Assembly: GCA_029204225.1 (NCBI GenBank)
Contig: CM055106.1
Coordinates: forward strand, 51,343,325-51,407,324
Direction: 5' to 3'
Origin: Diphasiastrum complanatum
Taxonomy: Eukaryota; Streptophyta; Lycopodiopsida; Lycopodiales; Lycopodiaceae
DNA: 64,000 nt
In this document: positions 29,036 through 62,423 of the stretch, piece by piece
Position numbering within the stretch: position 1 is the first letter of the stretch
Layout: every line of letters starts with the position of its first letter
Translations under genes and position numbers: made by a program
Notes under the pieces: model-generated
The model's input: the letters and a program-made list of their open reading frames with translations, nothing else
Database searches by the model: none
Told to the model about the DNA's origin: nothing

Positions 29036-31048
29036 TTAAATCCGCCAAGCAGAAACACCATGTGTATATTGGCCCTTCCAACCTAAGAGCAACCATCCTC
29101 CACGCTCATCCACCACAAAATCTCTGTGGTACATTTTCAGTAAATCTCTAGCTCTGTTGTAAGTGCTCGTAGGAAGAGGTAGAATCTTGAAGCCGGCTCT
29201 CTGTGTTAGAGCCTGCCATCTAGGATAAGGTTCACTCCTCTCCACTCTCTCTAAACCCTCACACGCTAAAACATTTAGAATGGCACGACCAAAAACAATC
29301 TGCTCCATAAGAAGTCGCTCGGAAGAATCCCTTGGGATGCACGCATCTAATGCCTCAAAAACAGTTAAATAATTAGCAAAACATTCGTGGAAGCGTCTCA
29401 CAAAACCCAATGGTGAATTGTTTTGCGTGTTGACAATCCCTTGTAAAAAAATCTTAGGATTCATGCTCCGAATTTTTTTGAGTACAATCTTTCTAGGGCT
29501 CTCCGCCATCATGGTTTCATCCATAAGATGTCTAAGCCTGAACATGCAATTCACAACCAGCACTTCATCATCATGCCTTAGATGCAAAGATGCAGGCTGA
29601 ATGTTTTCCCACTTAATTGCCAAAGCATCATACTGAAATGGAACTCCCCAAAGACGAGCGAAGTCAGCAAGCCGACGACCTGTCTCTTCCACTCTGCCTG
29701 CAGGCTTAAAACCAGGCTGAGGAAAATCAATGCCTGTGATTCTCAAACGAGGGGGACCGCCTTGTCGATTTGCAAGAGCCTGAATCAGACCAGACCACTG
29801 TATGCCGTACAGGATTCCAAAATCCACTATGTGAAGTCTGGACTCCCCTTCACAAGCACGAAGAATCATCTCATTGGCGTAGAAGTGAGGAATCGTGTTG
29901 AAGGGAGTGGTATCCAAGAAGACACGGATGGCCTTCAGCATCTCTGATACTGACGGACCGTATTTTGTCAGTGAAGTGTATAGGCGAGCACCATTCCCAG
30001 ATAATTTGGCTGCCAAAGCCTCCACAAAATAATGTGCTAAACGCTGTTTCCAGCTCCCGAAAGGAGTCGATCGCCTTCTTATGTCATTGATAAGTTTTCC
30101 GGCCTTCTTTACATCATTTGACGACACTGCCTGTGCACATTCTACTAGCATTGGGATCAGGTCTGCTGAGGCTGGATCATTGGAGTCAACTGCCTTTGGC
30201 TGAGCTTTCGCAGCGGGTCGGGAAAAACAGTGGACTCTCTTGGATATGTCTCCAGGTACCTTGCCCTCCCACTCAGATTCTGCATGAGGACTGCCATCAG
30301 AGCTCCGTACAACTTCACTTTTTGATGACAAAGCGGTACTTATATTTACAGAATCCTTAACCGATATCTCATCGCTTTGATGCCATACAGGTTCAATAAT
30401 TTTTGCTCGTTGGGAATTTCCCAAAAGATCATCTTGTTGATCTGTGTTGTTCTTATAGAGATAATTGCTACGAGTCGAGTTATGAGATTTGATGTTGCCT
30501 GGAAGCAACGACTCTTCTGAGCGCTCGACCTGTGCAAGAAATTTGTTAAAGAGTACTTGGCTGCTGTCTGGAGATAACTGTCTAGAGTTCAAAAAGCTTT
30601 GGGAAGACCCTTCCACTTTTGCATCAGAAGACACATGTTGGAAGGATTTAGAGATGAAGCTATTGCTATTTACCTGAGGCTCTATTAAAAGAGTGCCTAT
30701 TTCATTTTCCTGCATCTCTTGGCTGCTCAGGATATCCTGCTGTTCCATCTCATCTTCATTCGTGATTTGCTCGAGTACACCGAATGAGGCCGTTTCGCAC
30801 CCTGACGATGAAGAATTCTCCAAAAGCCCTGCCAGCTCCGTCTCCATTGCCTTGTACGAACTACTCTCTACAAACATACATTTGTGATCGTCCAGATATT
30901 CCCCATCCATTAGAAGTTGAGATATGTAATTCAGTGCAGCGTTTGAATGACAATAATCCTCTGAAAATCGGGAATGATTATCTGACGTTTTGCACTTTGA
31001 CCAATTTCCTGCCATTGGGAGTTTGTCCTCGCACCAAGTTCCTTCCAT
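29036..31048 (-). CDS. GRAS-domain transcription regulator 1 (SCL9/SCL14-like, LISCL type)
   Basis: Single-exon gene with no stop. In-frame ATGs lie at 31048 (670 residues) and 31015 (659 residues). The paralogue at 60.5 kb starts at the position equal to 31015, so that start may be the conserved one. Counting from 31048, the N-terminal 290 residues are Ser/Glu/Gln-rich and likely disordered. The GRAS domain follows: LHRI from DPASADLIPMLVECAQ, the VHIID box as LHIVDFGILYGIQW (405-418), then LHRII, and PFYRE-like parts with ILNVLACEGLERVER. The SAW end is GWLLLGWKGQYTHGVSAW. The wording is that of the LISCL group, nuclear co-regulators linked to stress and meiosis in seed plants. The target genes are not predictable from sequence. 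Confidence 0.95.
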   Translation of the reverse strand: MEGTWCEDKLPMAGNWSKCKTSDNHSRFSEDYCHSNAALNYISQLLMDGEYLDDHKCMFVESSSYKAMETELAGLLENSSSSGCETASFGVLEQITNEDEMEQQDILSSQEMQENEIGTLLIEPQVNSNSFISKSFQHVSSDAKVEGSSQSFLNSRQLSPDSSQVLFNKFLAQVERSEESLLPGNIKSHNSTRSNYLYKNNTDQQDDLLGNSQRAKIIEPVWHQSDEISVKDSVNISTALSSKSEVVRSSDGSPHAESEWEGKVPGDISKRVHCFSRPAAKAQPKAVDSNDPASADLIPMLVECAQAVSSNDVKKAGKLINDIRRRSTPFGSWKQRLAHYFVEALAAKLSGNGARLYTSLTKYGPSVSEMLKAIRVFLDTTPFNTIPHFYANEMILRACEGESRLHIVDFGILYGIQWSGLIQALANRQGGPPRLRITGIDFPQPGFKPAGRVEETGRRLADFARLWGVPFQYDALAIKWENIQPASLHLRHDDEVLVVNCMFRLRHLMDETMMAESPRKIVLKKIRSMNPKIFLQGIVNTQNNSPLGFVRRFHECFANYLTVFEALDACIPRDSSERLLMEQIVFGRAILNVLACEGLERVERSEPYPRWQALTQRAGFKILPLPTSTYNRARDLLKMYHRDFVVDERGGWLLLGWKGQYTHGVSAWRI

Positions 31049-31500
31049 TGATGAAGGAGACACACCTAACAAGGCAAGAATTATCGAGAAGGCAAGGGCG
31101 CGGGCGCCCGATGGATAAGATGGTTAAGAGTAAGAGGCATCGTCTGTCTGTCTGTCTGTCTGTCTTAAATTGAATCTGCTATTTTTCAGTGTCTGAATAA
31201 GAAAGAAAGAAGAAAGCACGAAATGCTTTGTTTGATCGAGGCCCGGGATGGTACAACAAGAACAACATACTGTTTCCACCCTTTGATCCAGGAAGTAGTG
31301 TAGCAAAAGACTTCCGTCTCACTTACGCAAACCCAACCAGCCACGAATTTGACCCTGCCTGCTTGGCGCTCCCTTACATGCAAGCGCTGTGGGGCTCATC
31401 AACAAAGAAGTTCAGGCCAGATCAACTACCATGTTTGGAAATTGGTGGGATTTTGACTTATTACATCACCATCAACGGCTATATAACTATGTGTTGAGGT
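31049..31500 (-). promoter_or_regulatory. upstream region of GRAS gene 1
   Basis: It carries a (GTCT)n run at 31142-31165 and a GC-rich palindromic patch (GGCGCGGGCGCCCG, 31097-31110). The 40 bp before the ATG resemble the leader of GRAS gene 2 (CTTGTTAGGTGTGTCTCC against CTTGTTTAGGTGTATGTCC). The 89-codon plus-strand frame here has no recognisable domain. Promoter role is inferred from position. Confidence 0.45.
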
Positions 31501-35310: not shown

Positions 35311-36290
35311 AAACTGACACTTTTATGGATTTAGGGATATCTGATACTCGCTGCATTTCTTCAACACCATTTCCAAATTGGATAAGTGCTCAGAGTTAGG
35401 TCCATGCATGCACAGCCTCATCCAAAAAATCCTCCAGAAATTTTTGCAAATACTCTTTGAATTCCACCTACATAACTTGTTGAAAGGTACTTGGGGCATT
35501 GCAAAGCCCAAACAGCATCACCTTATAGGCATAGGTGCCCCATTAATTGGCGAATGTTGTCTTGTGATGATCTTGCGGCGCTATTTTTACCTGATTGTAG
35601 CCGTTGAAACCGTCCAGGAAACTGTAGGCTTCTGCTCCTGTTACTCTGTCTAGAACACTTTTCATAAATGGTGGGAAAATGATCCTTCTTGGTGACTGCA
35701 TTTAATGCTTTTAGGTTCACACAAATTCGTATTTTTCCGTTCTTCTAGGGTACTATGACTATTGGTGACACCCATTCCGTGTGCTCGATTTCATAGATGA
35801 AATCAGCATCTAGCAATTTCATCACTTCTTGCTTGATCAGCTCTGTATAGTTCGAGTTGCAGCGATAGTAAAGGCAAGTTACCTTGGGGACTGCTCCATC
35901 CACCAAGGGTATGGTATGCTAGACTACGGTTGGTGGGATACCCTTCAGATCACTATAATTCCAAGCGAAACAATCCTTGTATTCCACCAATAATGAATGT
36001 AATCTTTTAAATTGAGTGGGCGTTAACTATTCTCCTACATGCAAGATCTTTTCTTCTTCTCCTGTCTCTGCTAGATTCATAAGTTGCGTTCACGTAGGTC
36101 CTTCAAAGACTTGTTCCGCTGGTTCCTGATTTTGATCAGGTTCTCATTGAGCTTGCGTCATTATGATTACTACGTCGTCTAAGGTATAGTTCTTGGAGGT
36201 TTCTGGCATCTCGTGAATTGGCATTCGGCGAGATTCCTCCTTCAGCATATTGATCTTATCCCGACTCATAATCTTTGGGTTATCAGTCAT
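35311..36290 (-). pseudogene. Ty3/gypsy reverse transcriptase, many stops, active site altered
   Basis: Reading leftwards on the minus strand: LLVEYKDCFAWNYSDLKGIP (about 35940-36000), IEHTEWVSPIVIVP and GKIRICVNLKALNAVTKKDH (35680-35745), AEAYSFLDGFNGYNQVKIAP (35590-35640), and VMLFGLCNAPSTFQQVM (35480-35530). The catalytic segment reads DFLDEAVH (about 35410-35435), where gypsy RTs have x-x-D-D, so the second Asp is Glu. Most stops are TAG, TAA or TGA at plausible Gln, Arg or Trp positions. Confidence 0.85.
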
Positions 36291-37185
36291 TTATGAAGAA
36301 GCTGACGCTGCATCTGGGTCCATTTGAACTGACTTCAAGGAGTCTAACACCTTCTTTTTTCTGTTTCTGCTCACATAGTTGGGTTCATCCTTGTTATCCT
36401 TCTTCTGTATTGGTGTGACATTCGCTTCATGATTGCGAATATCAACATCCACCATAGCTATAACCTCCTCTGGCAGATCGCTCCATCGGATCACATGGTT
36501 GCAACATTGTTTCAACTGGTTCTTTTTGTTGGTAGATGCCTTGGGTGGATCTATCTTGGAAACTTTAGCCATTGCAGATTTTTGTGGTGGCTGAGCTGGT
36601 ACTTTCTTAATTCCGTAACGATCTGGGTCCATATGTTGCAAGACCTGCTCATCAGTTAGCTCAGTCTCCTTGTTATAGGTAAAAGCATGTTGCCAAGGGA
36701 CTAAATCATCGTCCACATGGTTCTCAATAGCTTCCTTTGACAGCCATGCTACATTGATCATGTTCACCCCGAAAGTGATTGGTGTGTCCAATGTATAGCA
36801 CTTGGGTGAAGATGTGTTGGATTTTGGATCTAAATATCTTACAAGCATGCCCAGCCATACAGTCAACAGTTGCTAATGCATTTGTCCATCTCATGATATC
36901 TATTTCAGAATCGTAATGACCTCCCCTGGCTTGCCTTGGGCGATCAATTGTATGATCAGTGGTGGATGATGCGTCATCAGCTTTTGGTGTAATTAGTTTC
37001 ACCGCCCATGTGGTTGGATCAACCTTTACAGCCTGCGTTCTGTTTTTGAAGGTGAGTTTCCCGGTTCTCCAGTTGTGAACCACTTGCGCAGTCCTCAACC
37101 ACGGTCTTTCTAGATGTGATGGGCAGAAGGGGACTCTGGTATGTCCATCACCACGAAAGTGATCACATTAGAGAAACTTAGACCT
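36291..37185 (-). pseudogene. Ty3/gypsy protease end and protease-RT spacer
   Basis: Right end: NVITFVVMDIPESPSAHH, then ERPWLRTAQVVHNWRTGKL (37040-37170), which fits the LLGRPWL..A segment at the end of gypsy aspartic proteases. The catalytic D-T/S-G is not found: the element is truncated there. A hydrophilic spacer of about 190 codons follows, with CCNHVIRWSDLPEEV and many Lys/Asp, open to 36291. No gag lies upstream. Confidence 0.75.
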
Positions 37186-37194
37186 CGACGAGGG

Positions 37195-37300
37195 CCTTTG
37201 AAAAAGATGTTTTTTTATTTTTTTTCTTATTTTCGTTGCCATGTGGACCAATTGAAACTTTAGCTTTGGGGTTTTACGTAATGTAGAATTTTTCAAATAT
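37195..37300. repeat. dispersed repeat, also at 63860-63960
   Basis: GGGCCTTTGAAAAAGATG, then a T-rich run, CCATGTGGACCAATTGAAAC and TTACGTAATGTAG. The same order of words, diverged, occurs at the right edge of the window (GGGGCTTTTAAAAAAGATAC, CCACATGGTCCAATCAAAAC, CTACGTAACGTAG). Probably ends of a small non-autonomous transposon; the family is not identified. Confidence 0.5.
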
Positions 37301-37489
37301 AAATAAAATAAAAACTTTTTAAATATATTGTTGTTTCGTTGGGCAGCATGTGAAAATGCTATTGGTTGATGAGGCCTGCCCTTCCAGCTCATCACTACCC
37401 GAAGAGACCCAAAAATATTAAAAATGAATATGATAGATAGTTGAGATGAGAAAATCGATGTACAATCAATGTATATGCATTGTCAAACC

Positions 37490-37510
37490 ATGGTTAACAA
37501 GGTTAACCAT
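37490..37510. other. 9-bp perfect hairpin
   Basis: ATGGTTAAC, loop AAG, GTTAACCAT. It lies in an AT-rich spacer upstream of the unrecognised gene at 37.7 kb. No poly-T follows, so a terminator role is not suggested. Confidence 0.6.
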
Positions 37511-37718
37511 AGTTAATTTGTGGCACCAAATAGATTAGTGTTTCAAATTTTCGCCAACACTTTTTCTCATATTCATGGCTTTTTGGCTACGCAAATTTTC
37601 AGGTCCATAGTTTATTGTTTCAGATTTTTGCATGCAAATTACGAATGGTGCCATCAAGGAAGCCGTGCTCCTCAATCGGCTCTGTGCTTCTATTCAACGA
37701 GACAAATGATAATGGATC

Positions 37719-38590
37719 ATGGGTGTCAAGAAAATATTCAAAAAACTCTTGGATTTTGATGCATCTATTATCAAGAGGAGTATTTCAAAAAAGGAAAAGG
37801 TCAAAACTATCATTTCAATCTTATTGGAAGGGCAGAATTTTGGATTTCAGAACATCATCAAGAGGAAAATCTATTTTTGAAATTCTAGTCCAACATGTAT
37901 ATATGCATTCAGAGATAAATGTGCAAGGATTCAACCGTCAAGATCACAAAAAAGGCAACTGTGAGTATTGATATTTTTGATACTTTGATTTTTGTCATTC
38001 ATAAATATCTAGTAGTAAACTTGCCAATCTGATCATTTTTCTCTTGCAGATTTATATCCATCCAACATAAATGAATGGGAGCCGAGTGGATCTTTAGCAG
38101 GTGTGTTAGATGTTATTCACACTAATATTGGACCACTGCAATATCGACGTAGAACTACAAAAGATCTAGCTGATAGTGAGATCGTTTTTTATGAATCAAT
38201 GTACATTCTTGAAACAAAAGCAAATTTTGGACAAATAGTACCAATTCCATTACCTAGTTTTGAAAGTGATGAATGGATTGCACCAGATGCTACAGTTTCA
38301 AAATCATTTCGTTGCAAGATATATAATGATGTAAAAAATTCATTAAAAATGAGCACGGGATAAAAAACAGTCAGATTGAGTTGGTTTATTTCCTTGAATA
38401 TATTTGTGGATTTCTTTTCAAGTGTCAATGTACACAAAACCCCAACGACATTTGTATGCCAAAATTTATCAGATAGTTTAATATCTAAACTTATGGATGA
38501 AGGCTGGGACAAAAGATCAGATGAGAAATAGAATGCAGAATTAAATTGTCTTCCATGTGCTTCCGTTATCAAATTGAAAAACAAATGTTG
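37719..38590 (+). pseudogene. unrecognised protein gene with intron, frameshifted
   Basis: ATG at 37719 opens MGVKKIFKKLLDFDASIIKR, followed by KVKTIISILLEGQNFGFQ. A one-base excess in the T-run 37874-37878 shifts the frame, after which EILVQHVYMHSEINVQGF continues to 37960. A clean GT-AG intron (37961-38049, GTGAGT donor, TTCTCTTGCAG acceptor) joins in frame to YLYPSNINEWEPSGSLAGVL. The next part runs through TKDLADSEIVFYESMY to KIYNDVKNSL. At the A-run 38345-38349 another slip is needed to reach NEHGIKNSQIELVYFLEYIC. I do not know the family. The protein-like reading, intron and homopolymer slips suggest a real gene that has decayed, or assembly errors in a live one. Confidence 0.45.
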
Positions 38591-38628
38591 AACTTATGTT
38601 TCCATTATCAAAGATGGAAAAAAAATAA

Positions 38629-39017
38629 ATGGCACTCGATCAAGACTTGGAAGCCAGTGGACATTCAAAACGAAAAAATATTGAAATTATATACAATGAT
38701 GTCGTTTTGACATGTGTTGAGGTGGAAGAAGATTGGGGTCTAAACTACATCCGGCGGGAACTATTGCTCCTACAAGATGATGTACTTTCAAACTTCAGAT
38801 TCATTTTCAATGGTAAACTCTAAGTAACTGTAAACACTCGATCTTTTATGAATAGTTTCAATCAAAACTTTCTAATACAAACTTTGTACTAATTCTAACT
38901 AACTTTGTATGAGTTTTATGCAGGTACATAAAAGACATGAGCTCGAGATCAAATGCAGAGATATTGGCGAAACAATCCAACTTATGGAAGAACATTGAGA
39001 TTCACGATCAACAAATA
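38629..39017 (+). pseudogene. possible last exons of the unrecognised gene
   Basis: The frame from ATG 38629 gives NIEIIYNDVVLTCVEVEEDW, then GLNYIRRELLLLQDDVLSNF and FIFNG. This is a compact alpha/beta pattern that could be a ubiquitin-like or PB1-like fold (inference only). A GT donor at 38813 and TTTTATGCAG acceptor near 38923 could remove an intron; the following DNA also reads HELEIKCRDIGETIQLMEEH in one frame. It lies just after and in the same orientation as the gene at 37.7-38.6 kb. No function is proposed. Confidence 0.35.
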
Positions 39018-39181
39018 TAAGCCAATCATCATGTCTTTTTATCATTATAGAAAAATTGCATTCCAGTATTAGACCATGGACACAAGCTGATTGTAAAAAT
39101 CTATTGTGATATCAATAAAAAAAAACTCATAAACGGGTTGTTTACAAGTAAAAGGATTGTATCTTTTTTTTGGATGTCTCT

Positions 39182-40455
39182 CTATTTACAAATAGATCTA
39201 AATGCAATCAATTTTTCTATATTTTCTATATCAGTATTAGGAACTGATAAGGCAACAGCTCCTTCTATAATCTCACCCTCCTCTGTTTCGGGAAGGGCCT
39301 CAATGCCTTTTAAGACAAGAGGAATATATGTTACAAAATTGCCTTCCTCTGTATTAGGAAGGACTTTTATTCCTTTTTGATCATATAAAATAAGATCTGC
39401 ATCCTGAACAACCTGAAAGGCTGTTAAGGCAGGAGCAGCTTCCTTTTGAGGGCCCTCGATTGCAGGTGCAACACTTACACTATACTAGGATAGGTTTTGA
39501 TCAACTGTTTCTGAAATCTATATACATCATCAAGAGTATACGGCTCAAGAGTGAATTGTCATCACAAAACACAAGAATCAGCAAATTACAAACAATGATA
39601 GTAATAAAATATGAATAAGAATGAAATGAACTACAAATGAATAGAATATTACCTTTTCAATATCTACATCCATTTGTAAATTATATCGAGGGACCTAATC
39701 TAAAGCTTCTACGTGTATCTAGAAGAAAAAAATCAAAAAAGTTGCCGAGAAGATCAATTTTGTTAGCTAGGTAGGCCTGGTATTGATTATAATGGTCAGA
39801 ATAAAAAAAAAACCTAGGCTGGATCGTATGGAATTCTCACAAAAAGATTATGTATAGGAGCATAAACAGAAGTGGAAACAATATTTACAGGTTTCTTTGT
39901 TATTTTGTCTAGCTCCTCTTGGGTAATCAACACTTTTGGTGATGAAACCTGTTGAGGAGCTAGACAATTAACAAGAGGAGGAAGGGGTGAAGATTCTCGA
40001 TCTGAGTCATATTCTCCAGTATCTGACTCAGAGCTTAGGAAGACACGAGGTCTCTTGGTCGGGATACATCTAGGAGGAAGGGAAGCAGCTGGCCTTCGAG
40101 ATCCAGCCTTCTTGGGGACAGACTGCTTTCTCTTCCTCCTAGAGGTAGTAGGCACGTTGGTTCTATCCAGAGGCAGGTCTCTGGAGGTGTTGGCATTATC
40201 AACATGCAGACCAGAATATCTGTCCCGAAGCCTTTTGAGAATGACGAAATCCTTTGGCATGATGGTGACACGCTTATCATGCACTGCCAAAAGACAAATA
40301 TCCTCAAAAAATTGGGACATATAATCTTCTACAGCACCCTGTAAGGCCTGCATGGTTGTCACGGCAAAATGAACATTTAGCCCAAGTGACAGAGTGACAT
40401 TTCGAATAGATCGGCCGAAAGGAGCTCTAGGGATCAACAATTCAGTTGATCTTTA
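39182..40455 (-). pseudogene. divergent histone H3-fold gene with long C-terminal extension
   Basis: Minus strand. Exon 1 (40455-39814) reads STELLIPRAPFGRSIRNV, then MQALQGAVEDYMSQFFED and LAVHDKRVTIMPKDFVILK. It covers alphaN end, alpha1, loop 1, alpha2, loop 2 (KRVTIMPKD exactly as in H3) and alpha3. Loop 1 has the H3 length, not the longer CENH3 one, though LLIP.APF recalls CENH3. A tail of about 265 residues follows the fold: a basic patch (SRRKRKQSVPKKAG), an acidic Ser patch (SSESDTGEYDSDRESS), then two more exons, 39653-39718 and 39182-39517, in phase 0 with GT-AG introns of 95 and 135 bp. TAG ends exon 1 and one lies in each later exon, and a TAA precedes Arg-Ser-Thr-Glu. All four sit where Gln (CAG/CAA) fits: H3 has Gln at that upstream position, and CAG|GT would be a consensus donor. 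A DNA-packaging role would be nucleosomal; the present copy is probably dead. Confidence 0.75.
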
Positions 40456-40675
40456 GAGTTTTTTGATCTTCCTCAGCCAGATCTGCCTTCTATTTTCTCC
40501 TATCAAATGTCCACTGATCTTCTTCAATCACTGGCCTTGTCTCTTCACCTGTCACGATCTCCCATAGCTTCTTTTCCATCATAATGTCCTTCAGTTTGAA
40601 TTTCCAAACTGCATAGTTGCCAGCACCTTCTAATTTGCTTGACTCATTGAGGACACTCTCGCTTAGAGTTGTCAT
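40456..40675 (-). pseudogene. Ty1/copia gag start fused to the H3-like gene
   Basis: ATG at 40673-40675 opens MTTLSESVLNESSKLEGAGN, then YAVWKFKLKDIMMEKKLWEI and VTGEETRP. This is the DUF4219/UBN2 start of a copia gag. A stop follows at FDRRK, then KADLAEEDQKTLKIN. The reading reaches the first histone codons at about 40455, where the two homologies overlap by a few bases, so the junction is short and could rest on microhomology. The element lies in the same orientation as the H3-like gene. Confidence 0.75.
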
Positions 40676-40782
40676 TACTGGATAAATGAGTCCGGATCAC
40701 AAAAAAATGGCTCAATCTGAGCACACAACCTGTCTCCAAATTTTATCACACCACAAAATTGTATATATATGGTTGTACACCT

Positions 40783-41027
40783 GATATCAGTATGACGCGT
40801 CGGCGCACGACTGCTCAGAAATCTATTGAGCTCGCGCGCGTAGATCCAATATTGGTACCGGTATGCGATATCTGTATGACGCACAGATGTACGACTGTTC
40901 AGTATTTTCTTTGTCTTTGGCGCGTGGATCCAATATTTGTAGGATATGCTATATCTGTACAACGCGTGGATGTACGATTGTTCATGATTTTTCTTACCTC
41001 TGGCACGTCGATCCGATATTAGTACAG
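40783..41027. repeat. three-copy tandem repeat, 83-84 bp unit, CGCG-rich
   Basis: Copies start at 40783, 40867 and 40950 with GATATC(A/T)GTATGACGC or TATATCTGTACAACGC, carry CGACTG(C/T)TCA, a CGCG-containing block and GATCCAATATT, and end before the next start. They lie upstream of the copia gag start on the minus strand, so they may belong to its LTR. Confidence 0.85.
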
Positions 41028-41270
41028 AAAAGATGAAAAATAGAGGGAATATTCTAGATTTTCCACTTCGGCACGGCGGCTATGCCGCCTCCTCTTTGCA
41101 AAGATTTCAAAAAGTGTGATCATTCAAAAGACAGAGATCAGTAATGTGAAAAGTATGAAACCTCCTAACTTTGAATGGCAGGACTAGACACTATCTAATG
41201 TGATTTGCGATACTCCAAACAAACAAATGAGAGATTTCTTGACAAACCTCTCACAAAAATAGCACTTTCC

Positions 41271-41460
41271 ACAACAACTAGGAAGTATTGTAAAAATCTC
41301 CCCCACTCAACAGATTTTCAATCTGTTTGATGCTGCCCTGGCCTTTCTGATGCCTCCGACACTGTGCTTTTCACAACAACTAGGAAGTATTGTAAAAATC
41401 TCCCCACTCATCAGATTTTCAATCTGTCTGATGTTGCCCTGGCCTTTTTTATGCCAAAAA
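41271..41460. repeat. two-copy tandem repeat, 102-bp period
   Basis: ACAACAACTAGGAAGTATTG starts at 41271 and again at 41373. Each copy goes on through AAAATCTCCCC(C)ACTC, CAGATTTTCAATCTGT and TGCCCTGGCCTTT. On the minus strand AGTGGGGGAGATTTTT looks like a polypurine tract, so this may be the 3' border of an LTR element. Confidence 0.85.
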
Positions 41461-42540
<1,080 letters not shown>

Positions 42541-43530
42541 AAATCTTTATTAACGTCTTTTTTCATGCCCAAAGGCATATAAGACGAAACAAGTACATCA
42601 AAATGGATGGCACCAAGATGGAGCAATGTCATCAAAACAACAAAACTAAAACCAAACTAACTAAGAAGAGAAAAATCTCTTCAATGACTCTCAACCTAAC
42701 TCCGAACAATAAGCTTCAATGAAAGGCTCTCACGCAGGAGGCAACTTTAAATACAGTCTGAAAATTCTGTGTTGACTAAAAGCTCTCACGTAGGAGGCAT
42801 CACTGAGTGATGAGTTCCGGATGGGGTGACTAGAAAATGTCGACCATCCCAAAAAATAACCCTTTTTCCTATTGCATTTGCTTCCTCAATGAGCTGCTTC
42901 CGTTCCTTCCACTGTAAGGCAGTTAGATTCTCATAAACGAAAACGTTACTGCCTTTAAGACATCCACGATGCTTAAGAACTTCATTACGATAATCAGTGT
43001 ATTTGAAACGGATGAAGACAACTGTCGAACTTACTGTGCCAAGTTGCTTCCACGGCGCCTTCCTCTTCCTCATAGGAAAGTGAGGCCAGAAGTTCTTTGG
43101 CTGCAAGCAGGGGGTCAGTTTCGGAAAGACCTCTAACACGGACATTTTGAGATTTGTATTCTCGTTTGGCTTGTTCTTCCATTGCTTGTGAAACCATCTG
43201 ATTACTTTTTGCTTCGGTATTTTTGAGCATGTTAGCCCAACTTTTTGTCGAGGTCTGAATTTTCTCCTCCAGTGCCTTGACCTGCGTTCTTGAAGAGCCA
43301 ACAGATCCGTGTGCATACTAGTTATGAGAGACATTAGACCGGAAAGGGGTGGCGCACTGCATGTATCGCATAGATCACCCAGGAGTGTCATAGAAGCATG
43401 AGCTGGAGATGAGGCAGAAAGAGGCGGTGATGGAGCAATTTGCTTCTTTCCTTTCCGACAGGTAGTAACCCAGTCTGATTCCATTAAGCATTGACAAATA
43501 GGTCGCTGGTAGACAGGGTCCAAAAACAGA
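42541..43530 (-). pseudogene. LINE (L1-type) ORF1 relic
   Basis: Minus strand. An N-terminal part from about 43523 leads to a coiled-coil segment (KALEEKIQTSTKSWANML, second frame). An RRM-like part follows (NVRVRGLSETDPLLAAKELL), then in the first frame again VVFIRFKYTDYRNEVLKHRG, GCLKGSNVFVYENLTALQW and LIEEANAIGKRVIFWDG. The LKG..V.V.E.LT..Q / GKR.......F pattern is that of the L1 ORF1 C-terminal domain, an RNA chaperone. ORF2 (endonuclease, RT) is absent: after the ORF1 stop only about 250 bp separate it from the tail. Non-autonomous or internally deleted copy. Confidence 0.7.
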
Positions 43531-43769
43531 TTGTTGTGCTCCAGGATAGTCGTAGGTAAGGCAAGGCAAGGCCTCGCTTCAGGTCCGTTGCAAATCGATG
43601 TAGGCAGGGCGCAGATAAATTGCTGTAAATATGTGAGAGAGTTGGACAGATTTCAAGGGAACCATCGTGATGGCAGATTACAGGTGGAGCGATGGCCGTT
43701 GGACGGATTTCATGGCACCATTGCAAACTGGAGCTAGACCACCATCACGGGCTGGGGCGCCATCACCAT

Positions 43770-43893
<124 letters not shown>

Positions 43894-43975
43894 GCCCCCC
43901 CCCCCCCCCCCGTACTCCCCACTTCCCCCATCCTTTTCTCCCTCCCTCCCCCGTACCTGCTCCCCCCCCCCCGGG

Positions 43976-44900
43976 GGCCGATAGCCCGATTTGGGGTGGA
44001 GCGGCCCGGGGGCACCATGGCCTACAGCCTCCCTTCCAGGAAAGTGCGAGGGGGGTGTCCCGAGCAGTGTGAGATGCCCATGAAACAGTAAAGTTTTAAT
44101 ATATATAGATAAGGCCCAGTGCCCAATTTCTTTTTTCTTTTTATTTTGGAAATGTCTTGAAAAACAAAATTTTACATATAAATTTAGAATCTAAAGTTTT
44201 TGTAAGCCTTTCACCACAACTCTCATGTGAATAGCCAATACAAAATTGACACATAGCACATGAAAATTTTAATCAAATATCAATGTGGATTACCACCATA
44301 TTGCACATGCATTTTTCGACAAAATTTGCTTGTGTGATGTCATGGCTAGTCATTGGATGTTCACAAGCACATTTCGTAGGCAAAAAGAAACTTCAAATTT
44401 ATTTTTTGCACCTGCTCATTATGTGGAAAATGACAATAAAACAAAAAAAAATGTAAAAATCTCAAAAGAAATGAGAAAAGAAATATTTGAGTAAAACAAC
44501 ATAAAAATCCCCATGTGCAAATTATATAAAGGAAGGCCTAAGGGCCTTGGGCCTTCCACCCTAGGGCGGCACCCTTGGATAGTCGTTACCTAGGTTAAAA
44601 GGTCCTCATACTAGTAGTGCCTTCTCCCCCAATTTTTTTTCAGATGTTTTCCAACCATTGAGAAATTCCCATGTCGACATCCAATGAGGGACTGGCACCT
44701 CCACAATTGACATTATGAAAGAACTTGCATGTGGATGGCTAGTGAGCAAGAACCATATAACATACACAAATCTTGATGCAATATGTATGCACCATGTGGC
44801 ATTTACTCATTGTTTGTTTATTTAGAAATATCTTGATGCAAGAAAAGTAGTAAATATAGTACTCTAGAAATGAATTTAGGTGAGTGGGAGTGAAGATTAA
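43976..44900. other. spacer and part of an LTR, no gene seen
   Basis: AT-rich with short frames. The right part (to 44908) would be the LTR of the minus-strand copia element that starts TGTTGGAGTTAATC at 44908. Confidence 0.45.
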
Positions 44901-44907
44901 CTCCAAC

Positions 44908-44918
44908 ACTCCCCCTTA
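44908..44918 (-). promoter_or_regulatory. copia polypurine tract / LTR start (minus strand)
   Basis: TTAAGGGGGAG followed by TGTTGGAGTTAATCTTCAC on the minus strand. The same LTR start occurs on the plus strand at 47221 (TGTTGGAGTTAATCTCCAC). Confidence 0.75.
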
Positions 44919-44921
44919 AGC

Positions 44922-45990
44922 TTAACTCCTAGGATCTTGAATGAAGCTTAATAAGTTGCATAAATCAACATGCTTTTCCCTCGACAGGGGCTTTGTCAGA
45001 ATATCAACCAACATACTATCAGTATGACAGTTATTTAATTCGACAAGCTTGTTCAGAAATTTCTCTCTAAGAAAATGAAATTGAGCTTCAATGTGTTTAG
45101 TTCTAGATTGAGTTTGTGGGCTCAGAGATAGAGCTATGTAGCTCTGATTGTCGCAATGGAGCATAGTTGATCTGAATTGAGAGAACATCAAATCCCGAAG
45201 CAATTTTCTGAGCCAAATAATTTCCTTCAAAGAAGAGATGGCTGTAACATATTTGGTCTTTGTGGAAGAAAAAGAAAAGCATTTCTGCTTTCGACTATTC
45301 CATGAAATGGGTTCTCCTGCTAAAAAGCATAGGTAGCCAGAAGTGGATTTTCGTGTGTCCCCATCTCGCATCTAGAGTTAAAGCGTCCTCTATATTTCCA
45401 TTATAACATAGAGCATAGTGCTTTGTGGCTTGAATGTATCTTAGTACTCTCAGTAGAGTTAAAGCCTTGGGTCGACAAATGCAGACCATGGCATACATGA
45501 TCGATCCAACTACCGATTGATAGGGGTGGGTATTTGCACATCTCCTTCTTCTCTGCTTCAATCGTTGTGTGTCCTTTGGTAGTTTGAATCCTGGACTCAT
45601 AGGCAAGTCTGTCGACTTGCATGCTTCCATGCCATTTAGATACCTTTCTGGCTTATCGTGATCCTTCTGTTCGCTCTGTCTCTAGTTATCTCAATCCCGA
45701 GGAGGTAGCGCACTAGGCCTAAATTGTTCATTTCAAATTCCTTCGACAATAGAGACTTGGTCTCTTGAGTAACTGATTTGAATTGCCGATGATCAGATAC
45801 TCATCAATGTATAGAGCTATTAAGACATAGCATGGGCCTCTGTGTTTGAGATAAACATTAGAGTCGGCAGAATTTGGAATGAAGTCATGCTGCAACAAGA
45901 ATCGATTGATTCTGATTTTCTTAAATCTCTGTTCTCCGCAATACTGAGTGTGAGTGATTTCGAATCTACTAGCAATCTCGTATGCATTAC
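44922..45990 (-). pseudogene. Ty1/copia RT end and RNase H
   Basis: Minus strand: INRFLLQHDFIPNSADSNVY, then the RT active-site segment ALYIDEYLIIGNS (about 45795-45835, Y-I-D-E in place of Y-x-D-D). Next come RYLLGIEITRDRANRR and a segment with YQSVVGSIMYAM. RNase H keeps RKSTSGYLCFLAGEPISWNS and MLHCDNQSYIAL but reads TKTKYVTAIS where the catalytic Glu motif should be. The end is DSMLVDILTKPLSREKHVD. Frameshifts near 45360 and 45640-45720 and missing upstream parts make it a relic. Confidence 0.82.
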
Positions 45991-46768
45991 TTGACTCATT
46001 CTTTGGTTAGACAGTACGATATTTCATTACAGTCGTTTGTTGTGTTTCTGTGAAGTTGAGCTAAAGAATTGTCTTTAAACTTATTTACTTGTCTATGCGT
46101 ATACTTTGTGTTTGACATTCGAGTAAATATACCTTTGGTGCAGTTTTCCACAGTTGCTGATGTAAAAGTATGTATGTTGTGAAATGCTAGTCCCTGACTG
46201 AGGAACTGAGTCATTGATCTGTAGTCATGTTATTAACAAAGATATTTGTTTCTAACATATTTGTGAACTGATTGAGTTCTTTAACCATGGTTGAGGACTT
46301 CTGTCTAGAACACATGAGTTCATGAACAAGATTAACTTTTTGTCTGTTTGTACGTGACTGCATCGAACATATCACAGATCCTTGTTGACAACTTAATCAG
46401 TCAGAGTGCAATTCATTTGAGTTACTCTGATATCATTTTACATACAGAATGCTTTATCTTCGGTTTGATAGAGGAAGACTGTTGTTTAGCATTCATTACC
46501 TGTATTCACCTTTCCTAAAAGTGGTACTGGCTGCTTACAAAATGTCTATTGACAACCAGATTTTCTCTCGACTCCATTTTATTTGAAATAAGTCAATAAT
46601 GCATCAACTTAAAAACTTTTTAAGGGATATCTTCTTGGGGAACGATCTAAATACTACATAAATATAGCAATTCGGTGTTGGTATATTACGACATGTGCCA
46701 ATTTTTGGCATCGTTTCTAGTCAAATAAAATTGATGCAAACTGACAACTCCATCTCCATCCCCATTGT
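45991..46768. other. AT-rich spacer, no gene recognised
   Basis: A 72-codon minus-strand frame (45996-46214) follows the copia relic but has no known domain. Confidence 0.4.
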
Positions 46769-60521: not shown

Positions 60522-62423
60522 ATGGCAGGAAATCGGTCCGGCCCAGATATTGATTCCCAATTTGCAGAGAATATTTGTCATTCGAATGCTGCACTGACTT
60601 ACATATCTCAAATTTTAATGGACGAGGATGATCTGGACGAGCACAAAAAGTGTATGTCTTTGACGAGTATCTCGTACAAGGCAATGGAAAAAGAGCTGGC
60701 AGGTCTTTTGAACAATTCTACGTCCTCAGGACTGAGCGAGACAGCCTCATCTGGTGTACTCAAGAAATTTGAGAGTGAAAATGAGGTGGAGAAGCAGAAG
60801 ATCTTGACCAGCCAAGTGATGCAGGTAAATGAAATAGATATTCTTTCAATGGAGTCTCCGGAGCGTATGGCGATAGATTCTGAGCAGTACATGACTAGCA
60901 ATGGCTTCATTTCTACATCCTTACCACATGTGCCCTCTTATGTGGGAGGGTCCTTTACAAGCTTTTCAATCTCTAGACAATTAACTCCAGACAGTAGTCA
61001 AGTACTCTTAAATGAATTTCTTGCACAGGGTGAAGATCCAGTAGAGTCGTCACTCAACGGCAATCAAGAGGTCCGGGCTGACATATCATTATTTCAAGGC
61101 AATATCAGATCTGGTAAGTCAACTCATGACGATAATCTTTCTAAGAACAATATAGATCAACAGGACAGTCTTTTGGAAACTTCGCGGAGAAAAAATGTTT
61201 TTAAAAATGTGTGGCATCACAAGAGCCTCCACTCTTTTGCCCGACCGGCTGCGAGAGCTCAGCCAAAGGCAGTTGACTCCACTGATCCAGCCTCAGCAGG
61301 TCTGATCCAAATGTTAGTAGAATGCGCACAGGCAGTGTCATCAAATGATGTAAAGGAGGCCGGGCGACTTATCAATGACATAAGAAGACAATCGTCTCCT
61401 TTCGGAAGCTGGAAACAGCGTCTGGCACACTATTTTGTGGAGGCTTTGGCAGCCAGATTATCTGGGGCTGGTCCTCGCCTTTACATTTCACTGCAAAATT
61501 ACAGTCCGTCCGTAATGGAGATGTTGAAGGCCTTGCGCGTTTACTTGGATCGAACTCCCTACATCAAGATTCCTCACTTTTATGCCAATGAGATCATTCT
61601 TCATGCGTGTGAAAGAGAGTCCAGACTTCACATAGTGGACTTTGGAATCTTGTATGGCATCCAATGGCCTAGCCTGATCGAGGCTCTTGCAAATCGACAA
61701 GGCGGTCCTCCTCGTTTGAGAATCACAGGCATTGAATTTCCTCAGCCTGGTTTTAAGCCTGCGGGCAGAGTGGAAGAGACAGGTCGTCGGCTGGCCGAAG
61801 TCGCTAGTCTTTGCAAAGTTCCCTTTGAGTATCATGCCTTGGCAATCAAGTGGGAAAACATTCAGCCTGCATCTTTGCATTTAAGACATGACGACGTGCT
61901 GATTGTGAACTGCATGTTTAGGCTTAGGCATCTTATGGATGAAACCATGATGGCGGAAAGCCCCAGGAAGATATTACTGGAAAAAATTAGAAGCATGAAC
62001 CCTAAAATTTTTCTACAAGGAGATCTTAACACAGGAAATAACTCACCTTTGGGTTTTATGAATCGCTTCCACGAATCTCTTGCGGATTACACAAATAAAT
62101 TCGAGGCAATTGATGCATGCATTCCAAGGGATTCCCCTGAGCGACTTTTAAGGGATCAGGTATGTTATGGTAGTGTCATTCTAAATGTTTTAGCCTGCGA
62201 GGGTTTAGAGAGAGTTGAGAGGGGCGAACGTTATACTAGATGGCAGTTTCTGACACAGAGAGCCGGCTTCAAAATTTCACCTCTTCATACAAGGGCTTGT
62301 AACAAAGTCAGAGATCTACTGAAAATGTACCACAAAAATTTTGGGGTGAGTGAGCATGGAGGATGGTTGCTCTTAGGTTGGAGGGGCCGACCTACACATT
62401 GTGTTTCTGCTTGGCAAATTTAA
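60522..62423 (+). CDS. GRAS-domain transcription regulator 2 (SCL9/SCL14-like, LISCL type)
   Basis: Single exon, 633 residues, no stop. TGA at 60519-60521 directly before the ATG in the same frame fixes the start. The N-terminal 240 residues are Ser/Glu-rich. The GRAS domain starts near STDPASAGLIQMLVECAQAV (252-271). VHIID lies at 369-382 (LHIVDFGILYGIQW), then GRVEETGRRLAEVASLCKVP, MFRLRHLMDETMMAESPRK, and the PFYRE-like ILNVLACEGLERVERGE. It ends GWLLLGWRGRPTHCVSAWQI. The protein is a close paralogue of the gene at 29.0 kb: most GRAS-domain positions are identical. It lacks about 40 residues just before the domain that gene 1 has. Its role is that of a nuclear GRAS co-regulator; targets are unknown. 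Confidence 0.95.
   Translation: MAGNRSGPDIDSQFAENICHSNAALTYISQILMDEDDLDEHKKCMSLTSISYKAMEKELAGLLNNSTSSGLSETASSGVLKKFESENEVEKQKILTSQVMQVNEIDILSMESPERMAIDSEQYMTSNGFISTSLPHVPSYVGGSFTSFSISRQLTPDSSQVLLNEFLAQGEDPVESSLNGNQEVRADISLFQGNIRSGKSTHDDNLSKNNIDQQDSLLETSRRKNVFKNVWHHKSLHSFARPAARAQPKAVDSTDPASAGLIQMLVECAQAVSSNDVKEAGRLINDIRRQSSPFGSWKQRLAHYFVEALAARLSGAGPRLYISLQNYSPSVMEMLKALRVYLDRTPYIKIPHFYANEIILHACERESRLHIVDFGILYGIQWPSLIEALANRQGGPPRLRITGIEFPQPGFKPAGRVEETGRRLAEVASLCKVPFEYHALAIKWENIQPASLHLRHDDVLIVNCMFRLRHLMDETMMAESPRKILLEKIRSMNPKIFLQGDLNTGNNSPLGFMNRFHESLADYTNKFEAIDACIPRDSPERLLRDQVCYGSVILNVLACEGLERVERGERYTRWQFLTQRAGFKISPLHTRACNKVRDLLKMYHKNFGVSEHGGWLLLGWRGRPTHCVSAWQI

Follow-up and report, generated by a model that had tools for sequence, protein, structure and literature searches.

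Histone H3 is among the most constrained eukaryotic proteins. The end of its alpha3 helix lies near the octamer surface in nucleosomes, and the C-terminal tail of CENP-A, which is short, is functional and read by CENP-C. According to the papers cited here, the plant 'H3-like' class is heterogeneous, with N-terminal parts absent or degenerate and introns present or not (PMC4357034), the ciliate Stylonychia expresses the divergent and developmentally regulated H3 variants H3.7-H3.9 (PMC4122937), the dinoflagellate Alexandrium monilatum expresses an H3 that is extended at the C-terminus and has 167 residues in all (PMC4751559), and among viral histones, long C-terminal tails occur on proteins of H2A and H2B type (PMC9145170).

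Here we describe a histone-H3-like locus on the minus strand of a 64,000-nucleotide stretch of DNA from the clubmoss Diphasiastrum complanatum, the whole of which is called the window below. The locus shares with canonical plant H3 (H3.1/H3.3) an ungapped alpha1-alpha3 region and the length of loop 1, but differs from it and from the 'H3-like' class in having a long C-terminal extension, in-frame stops and no N-terminus. It is identical to Arabidopsis H3.1 at 38 of 89 core positions and to three CENH3/CENP-A sequences at 34-36 of 90, a similar distance, so that neither group is clearly the closer one; the compared CENH3s themselves are closer to H3 (50-59 of 90) than the locus is to H3.1. Unlike CENH3/CENP-A, the locus has a loop 1 that is two residues shorter and a tail of hundreds of residues rather than a few, and it shares with the Arabidopsis CENH3 sequence used for comparison a Pro after LLI and a Phe after the KD of alpha3. 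The Stylonychia variants are, like the locus, strongly divergent, but are expressed. The A. monilatum H3 is likewise lengthened at its C-terminus and is the one C-terminally extended H3 in the papers cited here, but its extension amounts to ~30 residues, judged from the length of the protein, and its N-terminal portion is described as a close match to human H3.

The H3 homology, the in-frame stops and the loss of the 5' part at a junction with a Copia gag fragment lead us to read the locus, with a probability of about 0.72, as a pseudogene, in which the 3' part of a divergent, tail-bearing histone-H3-like clubmoss gene survives. An earlier note on this DNA had proposed a lineage-specific H3 variant. 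As a statement of ancestry this is supported: the H3 concerned was divergent, ran on far beyond its usual C-terminus and was not CENH3-like in loop 1. As a statement about a present gene it does not, since there are three or four stops, no start was found, the front is a Copia fragment and the numbering of annotated loci implies no gene here.

The histone H3-like core

40212..40482, minus strand: histone-H3-like fold, part of alphaN and then alpha1-loop1-alpha2-loop2-alpha3 (tblastn, Pfam Histone, PDB H3 chains)
40453..40455, minus strand: in-frame TAA inside alphaN, opposite a Gln of canonical H3

The stop-to-stop frame 40452-39814 on the minus strand has 212 codons ahead of its stop. A histone profile search, which the earlier note had proposed as a check, matched the frame 40452-39817 to Pfam Histone (PF00125) with an E value of 2.7e-16 (60.4 bits, cut-off 26.4), and aligned frame residues 1-72 with model positions 47-118 of 122. 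The best matches of the same frame in the PDB were histone H3 chains (E 1.7e-14, residues 1-77), and the best 60 of 174 matches were all H3 or histone-domain chains. CENP-T_C (8.6e-06) and CENP-S (0.00089) matched as well, both below their Pfam cut-offs. In tblastn, canonical H3 residues 46-132 aligned without gaps to 40482-40222, with 38 of 87 residues identical, and Pfam, PDB and tblastn thus place the H3 landmarks on the minus strand where the earlier note had read them. The tblastn homology begins ~10 codons upstream of the exon 1 proposed in that note and runs through the TAA inside alphaN, where 'IWLRKIKKL*RSTELLI' of the locus is aligned with 'VALREIRKYQKSTELLI' of canonical H3. No further H3 or alphaN match better than E 0.30 was found by tblastn in the window.

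From alpha1 through loop 1, alpha2 and loop 2 to alpha3 the core aligns free of gaps, and loop 1 has the canonical length, as the note had observed in saying that the gene lacks the longer loop of CENH3. In all three CENH3/CENP-A sequences compared (human CENP-A and the CENH3s of Arabidopsis and maize) this loop is two residues longer. CENH3 identity was rejected, because loop 1 of the core is too short. In the alignment, with residues numbered as in H3, the core keeps R69, R72, F84, H113, R116, T118 and D123, while R63 and R83 are lost.

The C-terminal tail, putative downstream exons and their relatives

39817..40211, minus strand: C-terminal tail in exon 1, basic (SRRKRKQSVPKKAGSRRPA) and then acidic-Ser (SSESDTGEYDSDRESS); open frame with three-base periodicity
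39814..39816, minus strand: in-frame TAG, the last codon of the exon 1 proposed earlier
39719..39813, minus strand: putative intron 1, read from the sequence; its donor GTTTTT is weak, its acceptor is rich in pyrimidines and ends in TTCTAG; GC 0.31
39653..39718, minus strand: putative exon 2 (22 codons), interrupted in frame by TAG at 39697-39695, from translation and periodicity
39518..39652, minus strand: putative intron 2, donor GTAATA, acceptor TATAG, read from the sequence; GC 0.27 over 39519-39652
39182..39517, minus strand: putative exon 3, interrupted in frame by TAG at 39487-39485 and ending in TAG at 39184-39182, from translation and periodicity

Histone H3 ends soon after alpha3; the frame of the locus continues open for ~135 codons beyond it. 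None of 5000 dinucleotide shuffles of the 405 bases at 39817-40221 was free of stops (mean 8.2 stops), which bears out the earlier claim that the frame runs past alpha3, and the composition of the translated exon 1 agrees with the description of this tail as basic and then acidic-Ser. Exon 3 holds an open frame of 100 codons (39185-39484), and a fraction of 0.0002 of 5000 shuffles was as open; the stop count of putative exon 2 is ordinary, 34.7% of 5000 shuffles having as few. Three-base periodicity was found in the tail and in exon 3 (p 0.001 each), weakly in exon 2 (p 0.035) and also in putative intron 1 (p 0.007), with values of p 0.10 in the H3 core and p 0.96 in the 3' flank. Codon-usage scores failed to separate the strands: the coding frame scored 0.09 in the core and 0.06 in the tail, and one reverse frame scored 0.14 in core and tail. 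The two further exons had been described as joining in phase 0. The phase is indeed kept and the periodicity of exons 2 and 3 speaks for them, but a continuous coding sequence is contradicted by an in-frame TAG in each.

Searches of the PDB gave no relative of the tail (39817-40206) at E values up to 1 and nothing credible for exon 3 (one chain at E 0.088). NCBIfam likewise gave nothing credible, with one match to the H3-like frame at E 0.11 and none to exon 3. AlphaFold predictions reached pLDDT values of 46 and 35, so the predicted structure adds little.

Relatives were sought in protein searches that reach only proteins sharing exact words with the query, within a length range. In a first search, two proteins among 196 candidates were found, both mite H3s matching in the fold only. 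In a second, with the three exons, in which stops were written as X, three proteins among 4101 candidates were found at E values up to 1, namely the same two mite H3s and O6H91_Y440400 of D. complanatum. No protein with an H3 and such a tail was among the 196 and 4101 candidates, and the intact orthologues with the same tail for which the earlier note had advised a search were thus not met there. Among the literature matches listed, from open-licence papers, none concerned an H3 variant of clubmosses with a long tail at its C-terminus.

O6H91_Y440400 has 402 residues, lies on a 42-kb contig and matches exon 3 with its C-terminus at 37 of 44 residues (84%). It has no histone match (its single Pfam match has an E value of 0.21), and its first part resembles what we take to be an At1g16860-type membrane protein. 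Judged from these sequences, exon-3-like sequence is present at a second D. complanatum locus, outside an H3 context as annotated. The last ~50 residues of this protein seem to form an exon-3-like end on a membrane-protein-like gene, perhaps a chimeric gene model.

The annotation of exon-3-like sequence as the end of a different gene, together with the weak donor (TAG|GTTTTT) proposed earlier, could mean that exons 2 and 3 come from another gene or a repeat and are chance neighbours of an H3 fragment. This reading, which is compatible with a pseudogene, is doubtful: the three segments share phase 0, periodicity is lost in the 3' flank, and no splicing is required for the first ~135 codons of the tail, which run straight on from the H3 frame.

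Acquisition from a large DNA virus, which the earlier note had also considered, found no support here. Four pattern scans of IMG/VR left 0 confirmed of 109, 31, 18 and 1 matches, and in a motif scan none of 97 loci matched at E 1e-3. These five scans are sensitive only to close relatives or to one conserved motif, so a distant viral origin is compatible with their null result. Viral histones with long C-terminal tails lend the idea some plausibility, those described in PMC9145170 being of H2A and H2B type, but the absence of a relative in the five scans, the putative introns and the plant surroundings make a viral source extremely unlikely.

In-frame stops, the missing front and the Copia fragment

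The exons of the earlier note, once translated, contain four in-frame stops (TAA 40455-40453; TAG 39816-39814, 39697-39695 and 39487-39485), all TAA or TAG and none TGA. An alternative donor, GTGAGA at 39840, is also in phase 0 and puts the exon-1 TAG inside the intron; the other three stops stay. The intact three-exon gene was rejected on account of these stops. We found neither a start codon nor an N-terminal tail upstream of the core, nor the full length of alphaN, and the homology ends at about H3 residue 46, near 40486. The first in-frame ATG after the TAA is frame residue 34, at the start of alpha2; it lies past alpha1, and the present locus should therefore make no histone. The uninterrupted frame with a start codon of a functional H3 is absent, and what the locus has instead, three or four in-frame stops in a recognisable gene that lacks its 5' part, are the disabling changes of a pseudogene. 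No frameshift is needed over ~345 codons, which is unusual for an old pseudogene and possibly reflects recent death or a missed function.

Two GRAS genes frame the annotation of this region. The one at 29039-31123 (minus strand) is identical to all 622 residues of the model O6H91_15G090300, which omits 48 residues, and the one at 60522-62420 (plus strand) to all 600 of O6H91_15G090400, which omits 33. By these locus tags the window belongs to D. complanatum chromosome 15, between O6H91_15G090300 and O6H91_15G090400, and from the consecutive numbers no annotated gene would be expected at 39-40 kb. Reading the stops as sense through another genetic code or RNA editing was left aside, as the GRAS genes of the window read normally. 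As separate observations, the two GRAS genes are in inverted arrangement, and the 48 and 33 residues absent from their models lie in frames that are otherwise open, perhaps because the models contain spurious introns.

A living lineage-specific H3 variant, its gene misread through assembly errors, alternative exons or stop readthrough, would agree with the lack of indels, with the coding-like periodicity of tail and exon 3 and with the donor that avoids the exon-1 TAG. It would still have to accommodate the TAA in alphaN, the TAGs in exons 2 and 3, the missing start and N-terminus, the CpG depletion of the exons (see below) and a locus numbering that implies no gene, and we regard it as very unlikely.

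Before the H3-like domain lie two features of the same strand:

40478..40675, minus strand: Copia-type gag start of ~65 residues, which carries a TAG of its own (40492-40490) and breaks off at the H3 junction (DUF4219, tblastn)
40783..41024, minus strand: an ~84-base unit ahead of the gag start, present in three degenerate copies, two of them 73% and 68% identical to the one taken as reference

DUF4219 matched 40493-40666 at 4.7e-05 with 23.4 bits, below its cut-off of 27, and the gag start matched two other Copia gags in the window (tblastn, E 1.2e-4 and 2.8e-4). Gag and H3-like core are on the same strand in different frames, and a gag-H3 fusion protein was ruled out on that ground. The ~84-base tandem units are perhaps the leader or LTR of the Copia fragment. 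When 38000-41200 was compared with the window it matched, besides itself, only its own ~84-base tandem units, so that no second LTR was seen, and the repeat searches found no paired LTRs around the H3 part, as capture by an LTR retrotransposon would call for. Elsewhere the surroundings contain Copia- and Gypsy-like frames, most named by eye and one integrase by Pfam.

This neighbourhood raises the question whether the H3-like gene was cargo of a mobile element, for example a Copia-derived chimera, and the locus one dead copy of many, an explanation that overlaps with the one preferred here. The gag directly before the H3 domain on the same strand, the element-like frames around it and the sequence 84% identical to 44 exon-3 residues on another D. 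complanatum contig, in a gene model with no histone match, would all suit such an origin. It is nevertheless unlikely, as the second LTR is absent, the gag and H3 frames differ, putative introns would not be expected after capture by retrotransposition and a single other partial copy was seen.

Probable past constraint, decay and setting

CpG observed/expected was lower in the exons (0.37) than in the window (0.52) or in the two GRAS genes (0.60-0.63). The ratio of CAG+CTG to TAG+CTA was 42:37 in the exons, and 76:38 and 70:35 in the GRAS genes. As transposon controls, a Copia stretch gave a CpG value of 0.68 and a ratio of 136:67, and a Gypsy stretch 0.58 and 59:54. The restriction of the stops to TAA and TAG, the CpG depletion of the exons and their ratio of CAG+CTG to TAG+CTA would fit cytosine deamination. 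Silencing as the cause of the depletion is a guess, since the Copia and Gypsy control stretches are not depleted.

Among the columns that are invariant in seven references (four H3 and three CENH3/CENP-A), 18 of 26 are kept, compared with agreement with Arabidopsis H3.1 in 20 of the 63 other columns (Fisher p 0.0019). The observed BLOSUM score of 183 was set against 400 simulated neutral decays to the same identity, which had a mean of 153, a standard deviation of 12 and a highest value of 190. Simulated neutral decay from canonical H3 gave a mean of 2.6 stops per 87 codons; 24.5% of 400 runs had at most one stop, so that the scarcity of stops in the core is in itself weak evidence of past constraint. 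These sequence comparisons give moderate support to what is most likely, namely that the divergence of the core took place under constraint of the H3 type and preceded the death of the copy.

Under the pseudogene reading, the ancestral product would have had an H3 fold followed by ~260 residues, made up of a basic part, an acidic-serine part and a less biased part from two more exons. While the gene was alive, this protein would have formed a pair with H4, and its C-terminal tail would have been exposed, serving for docking or being regulated through its charge. Within the tail, the basic stretch may have acted in nuclear import or in contacts with DNA. The acidic-serine stretch may have offered a docking site open to phosphorylation, if the C-terminal tail of CENP-A is a guide. 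The front may then have been lost to a Copia insertion with deletion, or the copy may have been left as a fragment beside Copia, after which it would have been silenced and have decayed by point mutation. At the present locus there is most likely no mechanism at all.

We tentatively suggest, as an idea more probably wrong than right, that clubmosses have, or recently had, an H3-like family with a ~260-residue C-terminal extension, of which this locus would be a dead member among dispersed copies, with at least one other locus carrying part of the tail, and of which intact members in Lycopodiaceae may work as nucleosomal H3s. If a former plant H3 did bear hundreds of C-terminal residues, the C-terminus of H3 can carry a domain, and the question of its docking partner is raised. 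Seen as a pseudogene, the locus is ordinary for a plant genome rich in transposons, with some interest as the trace of an unusual H3; most likely a relic, it is also a caution that a frame may read fluently and its splice sites look plausible although the gene is not alive.

A search of 36000-46000 against Rfam gave nothing at the gathering threshold. On the plus strand, 37640-38363 looks like a convergent gene remnant, with a GTGAGT donor at 37961, an acceptor ending at 38049 and a stop near 38363. Within it, 38019-38360 has no Pfam match, and 38047-38360 has no relative in a viral scan and shows periodicity at p 0.001. A further gene-like piece on the plus strand, 38629-38823, starts with MALDQDLEASGHSKRKN and has no Pfam match; when it is joined to the segment downstream of 38913, two of nine donor-acceptor pairs leave an open frame.
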